Source of the DNA: Siccirubricoccus phaeus
GTDB taxonomy: Bacteria; Pseudomonadota; Alphaproteobacteria; Acetobacterales; Acetobacteraceae
Assembly (NCBI RefSeq): GCF_008360935.1
Contig: NZ_SRXO01000008.1
Span: 62,001 to 126,000, forward strand
Reading direction: 5' to 3'
DNA length: 64,000 bases
In this document: piece by piece, positions 51,867 through 61,839 of the stretch
Numbering within the stretch: the first letter of the stretch is position 1
Layout of the letters: each line of letters starts with the position of its first letter
The notes under the pieces: model-generated
Told to the model about the DNA's origin: nothing
What the model saw: only the letters and a program-made list of their open reading frames with translations
Database searches by the model: none
Translations under genes and position numbers: made by a program

Positions 51867-52516
51867 CTTGGCCCAGGCGCATGGAGGCGGCTACGCCGCC
51901 GGAGCCGCGCCTCGAGCAACCTATGGGTTGGCAGGCGCGGCCGGGCGGGGCTCAGGGCATGGGCTGGACGGTAGCCAATGGCAGGACCGGTGCGCCGATC
52001 AAGGTCCGGAGGGAGTGGTCGGACACAGCAGGGGCAGCACTGGCGCGGCGCAGGTTACGCAAGCCGTTAGAGCGTGATCGGTTGAGGTCGAATCGATCGA
52101 AGCCGTGAATCACGCGACCAGACAATAAGCCAGATGGGTGAGCGAAGCTCGGCCGTCCCGCTCTGGGGTCGGGACCAGGCGCGGCCGTCGGGCCGAGGCC
52201 GGGGGCCTCCGGTGATGGACGAGAAGCTGCATGGTGGTCGGCCGCCGATGCTTTGCAGGAAGCGGTCTGCGGGCCAGGTGATCATGCGGTATCGCAGGAG
52301 AGCGGGCGTGGCGATCCGTGCACGAAGCGCGAGAGGACGCGTGTCGGGGGAAGTGGCCGGCGACGCGACGCCTCGGCGAAACCAGGGCAGGCGAACGAGC
52401 CAAGAACCGGAAGGCAGGAGGTGGCGGCAGAGAGGGGCCTCTCCGAGCCAACGGGGCCGATACGCCCGAGCGGGCGTTATCCGTAGCGCCCTGGAGAATG
52501 TAAGCCCTTGAAAAGA
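51867..52516. other. Junction region left of the integrated element; no convincing gene
   Basis: It contains a family A repeat at ~52068-52160 (tagagcgtgatcggttgagg ... cccgctctgg). A short + frame around 51950-52070 (GWTVANGRTGAPIKVRREWS) might be a remnant of a gene but has no support. The remainder is GC-rich chromosome-like sequence up to the tRNA fragment. Confidence 0.45.
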
Positions 52517-52562
52517 TGGTGCTGCCAGAGAGGATTGAACTCTCGACCTCTCCCTTACCAAG
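52517..52562 (-). tRNA. 3' fragment of tRNA-Thr(GGT): attachment-site duplicate (att)
   Basis: On the minus strand the sequence from CCTTGGTAAGG through GAGAGTTCAATCCTCTC and TGGCAGC-A-CCA is the 3' 46 nt of a threonine tRNA: anticodon loop with GGT, variable loop, T-arm and acceptor strand with encoded CCA. The 5' half (acceptor 5' strand, D-arm) is absent; the sequence beyond 52562 is unrelated and AT-rich. This is the signature of an element integrated at a tRNA 3' end, leaving a duplicate of the core at one junction. The element therefore extends to the right. Confidence 0.85.
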
Positions 52563-52815
52563 GTGCTTATTACTCGGTTTGTACTTAAAGCGATGTGACC
52601 TACTACATGTAGGCCGGCTGGCTATTTTTTCGCGCTATTTATTGTTTATTTTTAGCGGTCCAAGTATAGGAAAGGCCACACGATGCAAAATCGTGTGGCC
52701 TACCGAGATTGATAGTAGCGTTATTTCAATAGGTTGATGGTGTTTTGGGGGCTGATCACGAGCCTCAGCCAGGGAAGTATTAGATCATCTCAGCGGCTAA
52801 GCACCCAAACGAAAA

Positions 52816-54853: not shown

Positions 54854-56449
54854 ATGTCTGATATTACCAATACGATGCCCGGTGTTGCGGGCAGCAAGAA
54901 GGATTACCACCTCTTCCAACTGGAAGACTTCGCCAACCACGTCGGAAAGCCGGTCGATACCATCATCGAAGACACTGCCATGCAGTTCTTCTACGATGAC
55001 GACTACTTCGAGAACCGGGCGAAGCGGAGGGAAAAGGCTCGGGAGCTGATCGAGCACTACCTCCTTCCCCTGAACCGCCAGCACGCCCTTATCAACGTCA
55101 GTGGGACCTTCGGCGTAGCGGACTTCCGCAGCCTGACGACGCCGACCTCATACAACCCGAAGATCGAGCGTGCGTGGATTCCACGGTCCATGCCCGAGAT
55201 GAGTAGCCTCACCGATTTCGCAGTGAAGTACGAGAACCAGAGCTGCACGGTCATGGTCAAGGACAAGGACAAGTCCAAGTACGTGCAGCGGAAGGTCACT
55301 GACGTCTGGCGGAAGTGGTCTTACCGCCGTGAGTACATGCGGGGTTTCCTCCTGGCTCCGGACATCGATCAGAAGGATCTTCCCGAGAGCTACAACACCT
55401 GGCGTGGCTGGGGCCTGGACGTGGACCCTCAGGAGCCACCGCATCCGGTGGCCTGGGAGACCCTGCGGAAGCATTTCGAGGAAGCTTACTTCCAGGGCAG
55501 GAAGCGCGAACTCGAATGGTTCTATTCGTGGCTCGCGGACCTGTTCCAGAACCCCATGTCGAAGCCCGGCTCGTCTATCATCCTGCGCGGGAAGAAGGGC
55601 ACCGGCAAGACGCTGCTGGCTGACATCATGAAGAAGCTGATCGGGGCTCAGTACTTCGCCCGCCTCGATAAACCGTCTCAGCTCACTGGACAGTTCAACG
55701 GGCACCTTTTGTCGACTCTCTTGGTGGATGTTGAGGAGGCATTCTTCAGCGGGGACAAGGCTGCGGAAGGTACGATCAAGTCGTGGATCACGTCTGAGGA
55801 CGTCCAGATCCGCCTTATGCGGACTGACGGATTCATGGCCAAGAACTTCTCGCGGTTCATGTTCACGAGCAATGAAAAATGGGTTGTGCCCGTGTCAGAC
55901 GACGAGCGGCGCTTCTTTGTGATCGACGTATCAGACAGGTTCCTCGGAAATGACAAACACTTCGAGCTTCTTTGGACTGAGCTGGAGCATGCTGGCGGAT
56001 TCAGGGAATTCTTCAAATTCCTGCTGACTTGGAAGAAGCCTGACTGGGTCAAGCTGAACCAACCGCCGAAGACTGAGGCGCTGGCCCGCCAGTTTGAGGA
56101 GAGCCTTACCATTCCCGAGCGCTTCTTCTGGAACGCGGTCAAGATGGGCGAAGACTATCCGCTCCCTGAAGGCGGCGAAATCTATCGCAGCCAGATCAAG
56201 CAGCAGTACGCGGAGTGGATGCAGAAGTTCGGGACGAACTGGCAGGCAACCAACGACAAGCTGTTCACCGACCTGTGCGAGAAGTTCTGGGAAGCTGAAG
56301 CTGTAGGCCGGAAGAAGATTGCACGCACCGACAATAAGGGGACGGTCTACCTGCTCCCATCGCTCAACGATCTACGGGCGATCCTCACGGACAAGTTCAG
56401 CCTCCATGACGACGCCTTCGACTGCGACGACGAGGGCGAGGAGGACTGA
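54854..56449 (+). CDS. Phage/plasmid replication helicase (D5/DUF5906-type, SF3-like)
   Basis: 531 residues. The N-terminal ~200 residues have no clear motif. The helicase core has Walker A RGKKGTGKT (245-253), Walker B STLLVDVEEAFF (287-298), a sensor FMFTSNEKW (335-343) and an arginine-containing DERRFFVIDVSD (350-361), the order found in the virus-type helicases of the D5/P4-alpha/DUF5906 group. The C-terminus (~400-531) resembles their winged-helix region. No primase zinc finger or Toprim motif is seen, so it may rely on a host or other primase. The terminator at 56480 and the iterons downstream support a self-replicating element. Confidence 0.82.
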   Translation: MSDITNTMPGVAGSKKDYHLFQLEDFANHVGKPVDTIIEDTAMQFFYDDDYFENRAKRREKARELIEHYLLPLNRQHALINVSGTFGVADFRSLTTPTSYNPKIERAWIPRSMPEMSSLTDFAVKYENQSCTVMVKDKDKSKYVQRKVTDVWRKWSYRREYMRGFLLAPDIDQKDLPESYNTWRGWGLDVDPQEPPHPVAWETLRKHFEEAYFQGRKRELEWFYSWLADLFQNPMSKPGSSIILRGKKGTGKTLLADIMKKLIGAQYFARLDKPSQLTGQFNGHLLSTLLVDVEEAFFSGDKAAEGTIKSWITSEDVQIRLMRTDGFMAKNFSRFMFTSNEKWVVPVSDDERRFFVIDVSDRFLGNDKHFELLWTELEHAGGFREFFKFLLTWKKPDWVKLNQPPKTEALARQFEESLTIPERFFWNAVKMGEDYPLPEGGEIYRSQIKQQYAEWMQKFGTNWQATNDKLFTDLCEKFWEAEAVGRKKIARTDNKGTVYLLPSLNDLRAILTDKFSLHDDAFDCDDEGEED

Positions 56450-56479: not shown

Positions 56480-56510
56480 GGGGGAGGGCACATGCTCTCC
56501 CCCTTTTCGT
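56480..56510 (+). terminator. Rho-independent terminator after the replication helicase gene
   Basis: Stem gggggag 56480-56486 / ctccccc 56497-56503 followed by tttt-cg-ttt. It lies 31 bp after the stop. Confidence 0.75.
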
Positions 56511-56836
56511 TTGGACACCCTGCGAGGGTTTGGACACCCACGGGACAGGCTGTCCGGGGGAGGGTGTCCACGCGAAACCCAGGAAAACCCTGGCTTTGGA
56601 CAGCATGGACACCATAGACACCCTTTTTGGGGGTCACATCCTCCGTAGATTTTTTCCGCCCATTCCGGCGTGAGAGGAGGTGCCTGCGGCTTCTCTGTCC
56701 TTCCTGAATTCATTTTCTCTGAACTAGCTAAAAAGGGTGTCTATGGTGTCCATGCTGTCCAAAGCCAGGAAAAACCTGGGTTTCGCGTGGACACCCTCCC
56801 TCCCACAGGGTGTCCAAACACGGCGGAGGGTGTCCA
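56510..56836. repeat. Iteron array with 70-bp inverted repeat: candidate origin of replication
   Basis: About twelve copies of a 9-11 bp iteron, TTTGGACACCC or its complement GGGTGTCCAAA and one-base variants: 56510, 56529, 56562, 56595, 56606, 56615, then 56735, 56744, 56753, 56788, 56808 and 56828. The middle copies form a near-perfect 70-bp inverted repeat (56559-56628 versus 56730-56799), differing mainly in a ccagggttttcctgg / ccaggaaaaacctgg centre. The 101-bp AT-richer spacer (56629-56729) contains gattttttccgcc and gaattcattttctctgaac. This symmetrical architecture directly after a replicative helicase gene is typical of a helicase-recruiting origin. Confidence 0.75.
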
Positions 56837-57124
56837 CACCTCACGCCCAGCTCCCCACGCCGGCAGTACGCCACATCAGGCGCAGCACCTGTCCCCTTCG
56901 CCGCTGCTTGGGTACCCCCCGCTTTGGGTCCCATTGCGCTTTCTCAACGCTCCGCCGCCGCCAGCATTGCCGATTGCTTTAGGACGCCGGCCTGGTCACT
57001 GCGAAACCGTTGGCGCCACTAACGCCGAAGCGCTGGCAAGCGGGCTTTGTGGCCCGATTCCTCCCGCTTCAACGCTCTGGCCCACTTTAATTCGCTGTAC
57101 CGCCTTTCTCACTGGACCTTGGTC

Positions 57125-57210
57125 GTGTGAGACTTCTCAGCGCGCCTCCAGAACGTCTCACACAAATAGGCCCTGGATTTTTTGGACGGCTCCGCTACAA
57201 CGTCTTAGAC
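57125..57210. promoter_or_regulatory. Inverted repeats upstream of the serine recombinase (possible res site/operator)
   Basis: A perfect 9-bp inverted repeat, gtgtgagac (57125-57133) / gtctcacac (57155-57163), and a palindromic gtcttagac (57202-57210) share a GTCT-AGAC core and lie just before the recombinase start. Resolvases usually bind imperfect palindromes in this position; a related cttagacgtcgg is found after the gene at ~57812. Confidence 0.45.
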
Positions 57211-57237
57211 TTCAGTGAGAATAACGGAGCGCGCAGC

Positions 57238-57792
57238 ATGCTGGTGGGGTACGGACGAACCTCGACTTCCGAGCAACAGGCCGGGCTGGAGGCGCAGGAA
57301 CGCGATCTCCGAGCCGCCGGAGTCGAGAAGCTCTTCACCGAGCAAGTTTCCAGCGTGGCGAAGCGGGCGCAGCTTGAAGTGACACTGGACTTCGTCCGCG
57401 CTGGCGACGTGCTGGTGGTGACGAAGCCCGACCGCCTGGCGCGCTCCACGGTTGACCTGCTGGCCATTGTGGCGCGTCTGGAGGCCAAGGGCGTGGCTCT
57501 ACGCATCCTGTCCATGGGCGGCGCCTCGCTTGATACCAACACCCCCACGGGCCGGCTCATGCTGACGATGCTCGCTGGTATCGCCGAGTTCGAACGCGGC
57601 CTCATGCTGGAGCGTCAGCGGGAGGGCATCGCCACGGCAAAGGCGAAGGGGAAGTACCGAGGCCGGGCGCCCACGGCGCAGCGACAGGCCGACAAGGTGC
57701 GAAGGCTCAAGGCCGAGGATGTGAAGCCGATGGAGATTGCCAAGCGGCTCGGTATCAGCCGCGCCAGCGTGTACCGCATCCTCGAAGCATAA
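57238..57792 (+). CDS. Serine recombinase (resolvase/invertase family)
   Basis: 184 residues. The catalytic domain has GYGRTSTSEQ with nucleophile Ser (S9) and R7, LVVTKPDRLARS, and GRLMLTMLAGIAEFERGLMLERQREGIA, followed by the C-terminal HTH (EDVKPMEIAKRLGISRASVYRILEA). It is a small resolvase-type enzyme, 180-200 residues, acting on a site near its own gene for multimer resolution or DNA inversion, rather than a large phage-type serine integrase. It therefore does not explain integration at the tRNA. The start at 57238 (MLVGYG) is preceded by ggagcgc. Confidence 0.92.
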   Translation: MLVGYGRTSTSEQQAGLEAQERDLRAAGVEKLFTEQVSSVAKRAQLEVTLDFVRAGDVLVVTKPDRLARSTVDLLAIVARLEAKGVALRILSMGGASLDTNTPTGRLMLTMLAGIAEFERGLMLERQREGIATAKAKGKYRGRAPTAQRQADKVRRLKAEDVKPMEIAKRLGISRASVYRILEA

Positions 57793-58525: not shown

Positions 58526-59632
58526 ATGAAGGGTGCCGGGAAGATGATTCCCGTCGAGCGACAATGCTGCATCCGTGAGGTCGGCCTGGCCCGAAACGGG
58601 CAACCGCGCTGGTGGTGCAACGCCCATGGCGGCAATGCCAGTGGTCGTGGTGGCGCTAGGTTGGACGTGTGTCAGCCCGCTGGTACGGACGAGGATCTAG
58701 TAGGATGTCTCGACCTTGACCCAGCCGAATACCCTGGCGGAATTGGAATCTGGGCCGCTCTTGAGCCTGTTCTGAACACCACAGGCCGGTCGGCCCAATC
58801 CGGCATCCATGTACATGCCCGTAAGAGCGCAACGGCAAAGAAGGAAATTGACGGTACGTTTCCAGCGGTGCGCGTGCGCTGTAGCCCCGACCTTTTTGGG
58901 CCTAGGAATGTCTTGATTCGCCGCGCTGCCGCCCTCGGCTACTATTTTGGCCGGCTTCTCGGTCACCGGCTGAAATACCTCACGTGCCCACGTTGCGGCG
59001 AGGGCCATCTGGACTCCGATGAGTTTGCTCTCCGACCGCACCGTCGGCATCTATGCCATGCTTGCGGTCGCCATTTTCATGACTCAGAAGATGCAATTTC
59101 TAATCCGATTGTCCTCGCCCGCAAACAACTGGAGGGCATCGACGCAAACGGTTCGCCGGAAATGGCTACCGAAACGCTAGATGTGCGGCTTTCGGACTAT
59201 CCTGGCGGAGTTCAGATCTGGGCCTCGAACCCTGCCATTCTTTGGACTGGACGGCGGTCGGAGCAGGAGGGCATTCACGTACATTTATTCCCGGGGAAGC
59301 GAGGCGGCCCCGAGCCTGATGAGACCTTTTCCTTGGTGCGTCTCGATGGTGTTTCTATAGATATCGAAATGGTGAGATATTTGATGGCGCAGCAGGCGCT
59401 TCCCCACCTCGTCGGCAAGATCGATGCCTTGGTCTGCTCTAAATGTGGACAGCCGCACCTAGACCGCCACACCAAAGCTCTAATGCCGCATAGCGAGCAC
59501 GAGTGCGAGCATTGCGGCGCGACTTTCAGACCGCCAGGCCGCCGTCGCCTTTCCGTAAGCAACCCGTTAATCTCGGCGTTCGGGCGACTCCTGGGACCCC
59601 AGTCGCCCGCGCCTGACCAGAGGAAGCCATGA
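58526..59632 (+). CDS. Duplicated zinc-ribbon protein, first gene of the cargo operon (unrecognised family)
   Basis: 368 residues made of two homologous halves. Half 1 (about 60-200) and half 2 (about 217-350) share YPGG(I/V)xIWA (69, 225), GIHVH (93, 249) and a treble-clef-like ribbon: CPRC 154-157 with CHAC 177-180, and CSKC 304-307 with CEHC 327-330. The 23-residue spacing within each ribbon is identical and HLD follows the first knuckle of both. A third cysteine cluster lies at the N-terminus (C14, C15, C31, H34). No catalytic motif is visible; a nucleic-acid or protein-binding sensor role is an inference. The start may also be the second Met at 58544. Its stop overlaps the next start by 4 bp. 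Confidence 0.8.
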   Translation: MKGAGKMIPVERQCCIREVGLARNGQPRWWCNAHGGNASGRGGARLDVCQPAGTDEDLVGCLDLDPAEYPGGIGIWAALEPVLNTTGRSAQSGIHVHARKSATAKKEIDGTFPAVRVRCSPDLFGPRNVLIRRAAALGYYFGRLLGHRLKYLTCPRCGEGHLDSDEFALRPHRRHLCHACGRHFHDSEDAISNPIVLARKQLEGIDANGSPEMATETLDVRLSDYPGGVQIWASNPAILWTGRRSEQEGIHVHLFPGKRGGPEPDETFSLVRLDGVSIDIEMVRYLMAQQALPHLVGKIDALVCSKCGQPHLDRHTKALMPHSEHECEHCGATFRPPGRRRLSVSNPLISAFGRLLGPQSPAPDQRKP

Positions 59633-60204
59633 AGGGATACGTCTACATAACGGGTACCGGTGCTGACCCCGCGCTACGCGGCAACCTTAACGACCCTCTG
59701 TTCACGACAATCCCCACGCTTGGCGCATGCATGCCGAACGTCCGGCGTTTCGTCTCAAAGGGCGACTGGATTTTCGTGGTAAGCGGTAAGGTTCCCGGCG
59801 TTCAGCAATATGTCGTCGGCGGCTTACAGGTTGCAGAGAAGATCAACACGCTGGCCGCTTATGAGCGTTTCCCCGAAAATCGGCTTGCGCGCGACGCGGG
59901 CGGCAAGGTGGTGGGCAACATCATTGTGCACGCAGATGGAACACAGCACCCTCTGGACCATCACCCTCTGGACACCTTCGAGAGCCGAATTGAGAACTTC
60001 ATCGTAGGCGGCAATGCTGTCGCGCTAGACACGCCGAATCAGGTCGAAATCGGTCGTGCACAGACGCTTGGCAAGTTGTCGGAGATTTTGGTTCGGCCGA
60101 GAGCGAATCGGGTTATCGATGTTATAGGCCGGTGGTCGAAGCTCGACGAAGTGCAGATTGGTAAGATGCTGGACTGGCTGTCCGGTATTAAGGGAGCGAC
60201 CTAG
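59629..60204 (+). CDS. Putative PUA/EVE-like fold protein, second gene of the cargo operon
   Basis: 191 residues. The start MKGYVYITGTGADPALRGNL overlaps the previous gene by ATGA. The sequence PTLGACMPNVRRFVSKGDWIFVVSGKVPGVQQYVVGGLQVAEKI resembles the first half of EVE/Nmad2-type PUA-like domains, in which a KxGDWI strand and a following G-K turn frame a base-binding pocket. This family comparison is by eye and tentative. The C-terminus (about 130-191) is a helical tail. PUA/EVE domains read modified bases and are common in phage-defence operons. Confidence 0.7.
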   Translation: MKGYVYITGTGADPALRGNLNDPLFTTIPTLGACMPNVRRFVSKGDWIFVVSGKVPGVQQYVVGGLQVAEKINTLAAYERFPENRLARDAGGKVVGNIIVHADGTQHPLDHHPLDTFESRIENFIVGGNAVALDTPNQVEIGRAQTLGKLSEILVRPRANRVIDVIGRWSKLDEVQIGKMLDWLSGIKGAT

Positions 60205-60209
60205 CTGGC

Positions 60210-61352
60210 ATGGATGGGGTGGCGCGCCTACTTCAGTCGCTTGAACTGTCCGCCGAGAATATTGCCGCGGCAACTCGGCTGTCGGTGGAGCGCGTGCAGG
60301 CAATCATAGAGGGGGCACCCGCCGATCTGTCGGAGCTGCGCGCATTGTCGCAAGGCCTGCGCCTTCCCATGCGGGCCTTTGCCTTGGGCCGCCGGACGGC
60401 TGACGGAGAAGGTGAGCTTAGCGTCCTTTTTCGTAGCGCTGCTCAGCGCGGCCCGCGACAGCAGCAGTCGACGGTGGATTTCGTAGCAGGCTTCGTCGAG
60501 GCCGCGATCCGAATCTTGCCGAACCGCGCCCGTCCGCCGGAGTGGCTCGGAGAGATGAGGCCGGTAGAGCAGACCTCCCTGGAGGCTCACCGGCTGGCGG
60601 ACCGCTTTCGGGACGTTTTCCTGCCGACGCAACTTGATGCCCCCCTTACGGATCTGCCAGCTCTGCTTAACGACAAGGCCGAGATCATTGTTGGCGGTCT
60701 GAGGCTGTCACGCTACGAAGGTGCTTCTGTTGTCGTTGGTGGCTACGGGTTTGCCTTTGTGTCGCCCCGATTCCCAGGGCGAATGCTCTTTACTTTGGCG
60801 CACGAGTTGGGGCACATTATCGCCCATCATCGCCAAGGCGAGCCCGCGATCTTTGATAGCTCCACACAGATCGCTGCTTGGAAGCAGCGTTCTATTAATG
60901 AGCGATTTGTGGATACCTTTGCATCAGCGCTTTTACTCCCAACACGCGGTGTGGCGCGGGCGCTGAAGGCCATTCGGACCGCTCTGAACGCCACTTCCGA
61001 TAGCGTCGGAGACATCGAGCTTCTCTACCTCGCGCGCTTCTTCGGCGTCAGTTTCGAGGTTGCTGCCAGACGTTGCGAGCAGCTCAAGCTGCTGCCGCAA
61101 GGCGGCGCTACGGCTCTTGCCGAAGCTTTGAAGAAAGAATTTGGTAGTCCCGAGAAGCGAGCAGATGTGCTCGGCTTGCCACCTCGCCCGGAGATCAGAA
61201 TTCCCAAGGTTTCAGACAGGCTGCTTTTATACGTGGTGGATCGTATTGAAGCAGGGCGGGTGTCAGCCGGATGGGCTGCCGAACGCTTCGGCCTGACGAT
61301 TGGGGATCTGTTTGACGCGCATGGCAGAATAGCTCGTGAACGTCGTCGTTGA
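60210..61352 (+). CDS. HTH-ImmA/IrrE metallopeptidase, third gene of the cargo operon
   Basis: 380 residues. The N-terminal ~58 residues look like an XRE-type helix-turn-helix (LELSAENIAAATRLSVERVQAIIEG). The peptidase domain has HELGH at 198-202 inside MLFTLAHELGHIIAHH and the downstream zinc glutamate in ERFVDTFASALLLP (E231). The C-terminal region (about 320-380) contains a second short HTH-like segment (VSAGWAAERFGLTIGDLFDAHG). ImmA/IrrE enzymes cleave repressors or antitoxins after a stress signal. It starts 5 bp after the previous gene and overlaps the next by 17 bp, so the four genes are one unit. Confidence 0.88.
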   Translation: MDGVARLLQSLELSAENIAAATRLSVERVQAIIEGAPADLSELRALSQGLRLPMRAFALGRRTADGEGELSVLFRSAAQRGPRQQQSTVDFVAGFVEAAIRILPNRARPPEWLGEMRPVEQTSLEAHRLADRFRDVFLPTQLDAPLTDLPALLNDKAEIIVGGLRLSRYEGASVVVGGYGFAFVSPRFPGRMLFTLAHELGHIIAHHRQGEPAIFDSSTQIAAWKQRSINERFVDTFASALLLPTRGVARALKAIRTALNATSDSVGDIELLYLARFFGVSFEVAARRCEQLKLLPQGGATALAEALKKEFGSPEKRADVLGLPPRPEIRIPKVSDRLLLYVVDRIEAGRVSAGWAAERFGLTIGDLFDAHGRIARERRR

Positions 61353-61839
61353 CGCCTGCTCCCTCATCAATCTCTCAAACGCGAGCGCACTTGGATTGGT
61401 GTGCCAACTGCAGCGCTGTCGCTTCTGGATCGCCGCCGGAGCAGCCGGCGAATGTGAGGGAGATTGCGCACGCCAGTTGCTGTCGCTTGTGGCCACAGGC
61501 ACCCTGCACCGTGTTGACGACACTACAATAAGCGCGGCCCGCGTTCTTGAGCTGTTGGCAAGGTATGGCCTTGGGCAGGGAGAAACAGAATCCATAGCCG
61601 CGTGCGAGGAGCATGGCTTCGTATTTTGCTCAGACGACAAGTTGGCTCGGGGCTTGGGAACATCTTTGCTGGGAACGAAGCGCGTCATTGGATGCCTTAG
61701 GCTCCTTCGTTGGTGTGTGGAGGAGCGCATTATCGAGTGCATGGCTGCAATCGATCTGCAGGGCGTGATGCGTGACCGCGGCGGTTTCTTACCAAAAATG
61801 GAGCAAAAGTTCTTTTGTACCGGGATTGCAGGTTGTTAG
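61336..61839 (+). CDS. PIN-domain nuclease, fourth gene of the cargo operon
   Basis: 167 residues, start GTG at 61336 inside the end of the peptidase gene. PIN residues are visible: VVVDACSLINLSNA (D6), YGLGQGETESIAACEEHG (E83, E85) and FVFCSDDKLARG (D100, D101), which form the Mg-binding ribonuclease pocket of VapC-type toxins. The C-terminal ~50 residues (RLLRWCVEERIIECMAAIDLQGVMRDRGGF) extend beyond minimal VapC. No VapB-like antitoxin gene is adjacent; the upstream peptidase/HTH protein is the natural candidate to control it. Confidence 0.85.
   Translation: MNVVVDACSLINLSNASALGLVCQLQRCRFWIAAGAAGECEGDCARQLLSLVATGTLHRVDDTTISAARVLELLARYGLGQGETESIAACEEHGFVFCSDDKLARGLGTSLLGTKRVIGCLRLLRWCVEERIIECMAAIDLQGVMRDRGGFLPKMEQKFFCTGIAGC

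Follow-up and report, generated by a model that had tools for sequence, protein, structure and literature searches.

Do four tightly packed genes carried by an integrated element of Siccirubricoccus phaeus form a functional unit and, if so, what does that unit do? The window, a stretch of 64,000 nucleotides of contig NZ_SRXO01000008.1, contains at 58526-61839 an operon encoding a duplicated zinc-ribbon protein (P1), an Nmad2 protein (P2), a helix-turn-helix (HTH)-ImmA/IrrE protease of the M78 type (P3) and a PIN-like protein (P4). The four genes are almost certainly a conserved unit, and the operon probably adds a new variant to the known toxin-based defences against phage. We lean towards a four-component toxin-antitoxin-type defence module on an integrative element, acting by abortive infection, in which P1-P2 would provide sensing or control for interchangeable protease-antitoxin/toxin cores.

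The four plus-strand open reading frames (ORFs) and their junctions, a 4-bp overlap between P1 and P2, a 5-bp gap between P2 and P3 and a 17-bp overlap between P3 and P4, are exactly as described in a first-pass annotation of this DNA. The true start of P1 may be 58544 instead of 58526, an alternative from which the homologues in loci L024 and L025 align. Conservation of homologues and the mostly synonymous changes in a close pair of genomes, G933 and G1051, identify P1-P4 as real genes; across all four, the proportion of nonsynonymous differences (pN) is 0.06-0.12, against 0.67-0.76 for synonymous ones (pS). The synonymous divergence (dS) of this pair is saturated, so purifying selection on the four genes is indicated only roughly. 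The G+C content of the operon is 57-60%, compared with 69% for the window, and no shared operator was seen upstream of P1 across the compared loci.

A set of 72,556 plasmid records contains a single full-length relative of each of P1-P4, and these four lie at one site on Azospirillum argentinense plasmid p3, in the order of the window. The same quartet is present in Stakelama sediminis, where a DUF6378 gene and then a long P1-like gene (P1L) come next, and G933 and G1051, of the Stakelama family, hold it among other genes at one chromosomal site beside lepA. The quartet, in the same order and overlapping or near-touching, occurs in at least five genomes, on a plasmid, on a chromosome and in the tRNA-Thr element of the window; P3-P4 is kept as an adjacent pair in six loci, and P3-P4 of the window's subfamily is always accompanied by P1 and P2. 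Screening two genome groups with both profiles (375 genomes) located P2 in 6, P1 in 9 and both in 6, P2 never occurring without P1, with a hypergeometric value of 2e-11 that ignores genome relatedness and stems from a sample of non-independent genomes. Joint occurrence of at least three of the four genes in distant genomes, named in the first-pass annotation as the mark of a unit, is thus seen several times, and the recurring quartet contradicts the opposite outcome, in which homologues of the zinc-ribbon and EVE-like proteins would never adjoin a peptidase-PIN pair elsewhere. Accessory elements do gather unrelated genes, yet a chance assembly of unrelated cargo would leave unaccounted for the order and tight spacing shared in several unrelated contexts and the strong co-occurrence; with the quartet recurring in distant genomes we reject it, its residual probability being minute. 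In G338 the order is P2-P3-P4-DUF6378-P1L. The DUF6378-P1L genes that follow the operon in Stakelama and G338 (L004:8282-9771 and L009:8826-10347) possibly represent an extended form of the system, the fifth gene (P5) of these two loci being assigned to DUF6378 at 1.4e-14.

P3 and P4 very probably constitute a toxin-antitoxin-type core. P3 matches Peptidase_M78 in Pfam (1.7e-15) and, among PADLOC models, capP (5e-17), the RmrA models (6e-10 and weaker) and, at no better than 0.0067, PD-Lambda-2_B; its closest solved relative in the PDB is CapP (2e-6). Residues H198/E199/H202 and E231 are invariant, with HExxH kept in 6/6 homologues of P3 type; this bears out the earlier proposal of an HTH-ImmA/IrrE protease as controller and, judged by sequence, makes P3 a probable antitoxin/repressor-protease. 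UPF0175, a known PIN partner, is unsupported as a C-terminal domain of P3; a distant P3 relative has a UPF0175 match at E 0.069.

P4 matches PADLOC PDC-S70 (1.4e-6) over most of its length, a family described as a PIN nuclease (PMC12988326). Its acidic residues D6, E39, E83, D100 and D101 are invariant in six homologues, and it aligns with a PIN-like protein adjoining another HTH-M78 gene (hhalign 89%, E 2e-6), the best PDB match being VapC6 (E 0.24). The PDC-S70 match, the invariant residues and the relation to the protein beside HTH-M78 give good, if not complete, support to the predicted PIN-like effector, and P4 is the probable toxin. PADLOC lists PDC-S70 as a single-gene system, whereas P4 (E 1e-6 to 6e-10) sits with three partners.

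Cores of this kind have precedents. Makarova et al. 2009 predicted that a COG2856-Xre fusion with a PIN or RelE toxin makes up a three-component toxin-antitoxin system; their description fits the P3-P4 core exactly and, in the accessible part of the paper, makes no mention of P1 and P2 (PMC2701414). RosmerTA (RmrTA) joins an antitoxin bearing an ImmA-protease domain to varied toxins, with PIN-like partners reported and defence shown for members (PMC10440598). Like RosmerTA, the operon is mobile and has an M78-protease antitoxin-type protein directly adjoining a toxin-type protein; unlike it, the operon comprises four genes rather than two, the available part of that source mentions neither a P1 nor a P2 companion, and the RmrA models match P3 weakly and over part of its length only. 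As P1 and P2 are always present, we class the operon as a RosmerTA variant and not as a plain member.

PD-lambda-2 consists of HigB, a HigA-peptidase and a third component that is required for defence and dispensable for neutralisation (PMC9519451). It shares with the operon a HigA-like HTH-peptidase, a toxin and an extra defence component. The window differs in its PIN-like toxin, in lacking a HigB-like ORF and in having two extra components, whereas the single third component of PD-lambda-2 is related to a P4-phage antitoxin and not to Nmad2 or zinc-ribbon proteins. The initial claim that this is not a named system was too strong: the P3-P4 core is already described, as COG2856-Xre with PIN and as RosmerTA, and no description was found of a link between P1-P2 and such a core. 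No account of the P1-P2 pair and nothing relevant on Nmad2 was found in a literature search that left most subscription journals outside its scope. What appears to be new is the pairing of P1 with P2 and the attachment of this pair to protease-antitoxin/toxin cores.

P1 was foreseen as a duplicated zinc-ribbon protein, and its two repeats (Table 1) indeed align with an hhalign probability of 99.75% (E 2e-27). Ribbon 1 is nearly invariant among homologues (CxxCGxxHLDxxxFAxxPHRxHLCxxCG), and the N-terminal Cys/His module comprises C14, C31 and H34. No family profile searched matched P1 above its curated cut-off. A P1 match in G272 proved false and is interpreted as the ribbon of an IS1-type transposase.

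P2 had been called PUA/EVE-like, an identity that the profile searches do not support: no EVE, ASCH or PUA profile matched at E <= 1, and the sole significant family is Nmad2 (nucleotide modification associated domain 2, Pfam PF18753), at E 2.9e-6 and 27.4 bits for a cut-off of 26.1. The Azospirillum homologue scores better (E 7e-8, 32.7 bits), the Stakelama homologue reaches 22.5 bits, just under the cut-off, and a P2-profile match in G797 is weak and partial. The part of P2 that reaches the gathering cut-off (Table 1) covers only about one third of the Nmad2 profile. A nucleotide-modification-associated domain was also predicted, unvalidated, as defence by DefensePredictor (PMC13092281).

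The core beside P1-P2 is exchangeable, since at other loci the pair accompanies a HigA-peptidase with a HigB-like toxin. In G1116, and also in G1108, where the locus spans a contig break, the neighbours of P1 and P2 encode a HigB-like protein and a HigA-like HTH-M78 protein, the latter matching PD-Lambda-2_B at 5e-35; these loci have the PD-lambda-2 type of core, with the HigB-like gene upstream of the one for the HigA-peptidase. The identification of HigB draws on a weak profile match (E 0.034), gene order and the known system. A Drt2-type reverse transcriptase (4e-133) adjoins the G1116 operon, the whole arrangement, with the PD-lambda-2-like core joined to P2-P1, occupying L026:588-5594. 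Conversely, G907 (L055:3122-6282) and, as more distant relatives, two cyanobacterial plasmids have an HTH-M78 gene paired with a PIN-like one in the absence of P1-P2; the existence of HTH-M78/toxin cores without P1-P2 marks the pair as the add-on and the core as the general part. The gene ahead of the L055 pair has a QueC match that is borderline, falling slightly short of the Pfam cut-off (E 0.00015).

From the families to which P3 and P4 belong, we infer that P4 would be toxic and that P3 would restrain it. A role of P1-P2 as sensor or trigger falls somewhat short of an even chance; it is suggested by the constancy of the pair while the toxin changes, by the third component of PD-lambda-2 being needed for defence only, and by ribbon and Nmad2 proteins being plausible binders of nucleic acid or nucleotides. 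More tentative still is the specific proposal of a portable trigger that detects an infection-specific nucleic-acid or nucleotide signal and is plugged into unrelated PIN or HigB cores. The roles suggested in the first-pass annotation, a reader of modified nucleic acid for P2 and a sensor or scaffold for P1, are likewise conjectural. In the favoured mechanism, P3 would repress the operon and keep P4 inactive. P1, with its zinc ribbons and duplicated beta-rich domain, would bind a partner protein or nucleic acid, whereas P2 would recognise or handle a nucleotide or nucleic-acid signal arising in infection, the accessory pair thereby signalling to the core when to fire. That signal would cause P3 either to release P4 or to cleave a partner or itself; once freed, the PIN nuclease would cut RNA, halting growth before the phage spreads.

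In a different reading, P1-P2, joined at some loci by DUF6378, would process or modify nucleotides or nucleic acid, and the toxin core would guard this pathway, the toxin being set free once the pathway is lost or inhibited. P2 belongs to a nucleotide-modification-associated family, P5 in two loci is a DUF6378 protein matching phage families annotated as nucleotide enzymes, and solo P1-family genes lie near DUF5131 (G956) and PDC-M30A/B (G1148). This explanation nevertheless appears improbable: neither P1 nor P2 showed a catalytic domain, the core unit is devoid of modification enzymes such as a methyltransferase or a glycosylase, and most loci are without DUF6378.

An anti-phage function of the operon is likely, and the earlier defence or toxin-antitoxin proposal fits the neighbourhoods of its relatives. 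The published defence by PD-lambda-2 (PMC9519451) and RosmerTA (PMC10440598), whose cores are closely related to this one, points the same way. Known defence genes (Drt2, TIR/spbK, AbiE and PDC-M30) neighbour four of the relatives' loci. Three further P1-family genes occur without P2, in surroundings consistent with defence: near a TIR/spbK protein (3.5e-31) and PDC-M30A/B in G1148, near two AbiEi/AbiEii pairs in G987, and near an AbiE pair and DUF5131 in G956. The corresponding intervals are L050:3339-8045 (TIR/spbK and PDC-M30A/B), L051:3123-10685 (two AbiE pairs) and L052:1-4605 (AbiE and DUF5131).

These solo relatives in defence islands also speak against an addiction or maintenance module, in which P3-P4 would kill cells that lose the element, P1-P2 would adjust how strongly P3-P4 are expressed or how stable they are, and phage defence would be incidental or absent. 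The carriage of the operon by an integrative element at tRNA-Thr and the presence of a relative on a plasmid favour such a module, as does the standing of COG2856-Xre/PIN pairs as classic mobile toxin-antitoxin loci (PMC2701414). Addiction would not, however, require two further large conserved proteins, P1-P2 accompany a different toxin core elsewhere, and the operon of G933 and G1051, kept beside lepA at a single site of the chromosome, shows signs of purifying selection. We regard addiction as unlikely, if less so than the guarded pathway.

Several results weigh against a defence module of four components with P3 as antitoxin, P4 as PIN toxin and P1-P2 as trigger. In PD-lambda-2 the HigA-peptidase alone is toxic and HigB rescues (PMC9519451), so the toxin and antitoxin roles could be swapped. 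P4 matched no Pfam family, PIN models included, and the HTH_3 match of P3 (E 0.037) lies under the Pfam cut-off. The three solo P1 relatives are of the long form, two clearly and the third cut by a contig end, and the element in the window itself yielded no known defence gene. A search for solved-structure relatives of P1 and P2 found none. By predicted local distance difference test (pLDDT), the P1 structure is weak (56) and the P2 model unusable (33), both from alignments of 2-3 sequences that contained only the window and one further locus, which accounts for their quality; a fold search with the P1 model gave zero matches at E <= 1e-3.

For toxin-antitoxin pairs that include an ImmA-type protease, the means of detecting phage entry is a largely open question, and two accessory proteins shared by two different toxin cores amount to a natural repeat of one experiment. 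If P1-P2 is a sensor, detection is separable from killing and the Nmad2 family gains a first functional handle; the pair would then turn ordinary toxin-antitoxin pairs into specific immune systems.

Table 1. Features of the operon and its host element, in window coordinates
Feature	Position	Strand	Description
Left 49-bp direct repeat (att) of element	52515..52563	.	identical to tRNA-Thr end at C53:129968
DUF5906/VapE-like primase-helicase	54854..56449	+	Pfam 1.8e-21 and 4.2e-7
Small serine recombinase	57127..57792	+	Resolvase 6.5e-40
P1	58526..59632	+	368 aa ORF; N-terminal Cys/His module, then duplicated domain, zinc ribbon ending each copy
P1 repeat 1	58703..59140	+	residues 60-205; ribbon at residues 154-180
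P1 repeat 2	59162..59581	+	residues 213-352; ribbon C304/C307/C327/C330
P2	59629..60204	+	191 aa ORF; Nmad2 domain residues 24-85 plus unassigned C-terminal part
P3	60210..61352	+	380 aa ORF; weak N-terminal HTH, ImmA/IrrE (M78) metalloprotease, conserved C-terminal extension
HELGH zinc-protease motif of P3	60801..60815	+	read from sequence
P4	61336..61839	+	167 aa ORF; predicted PIN-like nuclease

The operon is cargo of an integrated element, as first proposed, and the boundaries of that element could be placed. The perfect right copy of the 49-bp repeat is the end of the tRNA-Thr at C53:129968, corresponding to 67968-68016 on the scale of the window and thus beyond it; the two copies bound an element of about 15.5 kb, and a tyrosine integrase adjoins the tRNA-Thr. 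With a VapE-like primase present and no capsid gene seen, the element may be satellite-like. A clean empty site was not shown in same-genus genomes, in which the dnaE2 matches are 69-74% identical and the flanks do not align.

Further cargo of the element, at L011:11885-16417 (61884-66416 on the window's scale), consists of an intact dnaE2 (1113 aa) and an SRAP-like ORF, a translesion polymerase and an SOS-associated protease that make an unusual combination for mobile DNA; the best plasmid relatives of DnaE2 are from Roseomonas, which points to an Acetobacteraceae-like alphaproteobacterium as the probable host. The interval from the primase to the serine recombinase includes, at 56505-56839, an inverted repeat of 86 bp (88%) together with a GGTGTCCA-type motif in several copies; these may be iterons or a replication origin.

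Searches of viral contigs with narrow P1 and P2 profiles and a broad P2 profile returned zero matches, as did searches of phage records for P1 and P2. The broad P1 profile matched the ribbon alone, in two phage contigs, the proteins of which (L038:7473-8189 and L037:7467-8171) bear the P1-type ribbon (H-[ILV]-D ... PHRxHLCxxCG); in the L038 protein a DUF3850 domain (2.3e-15) precedes it.

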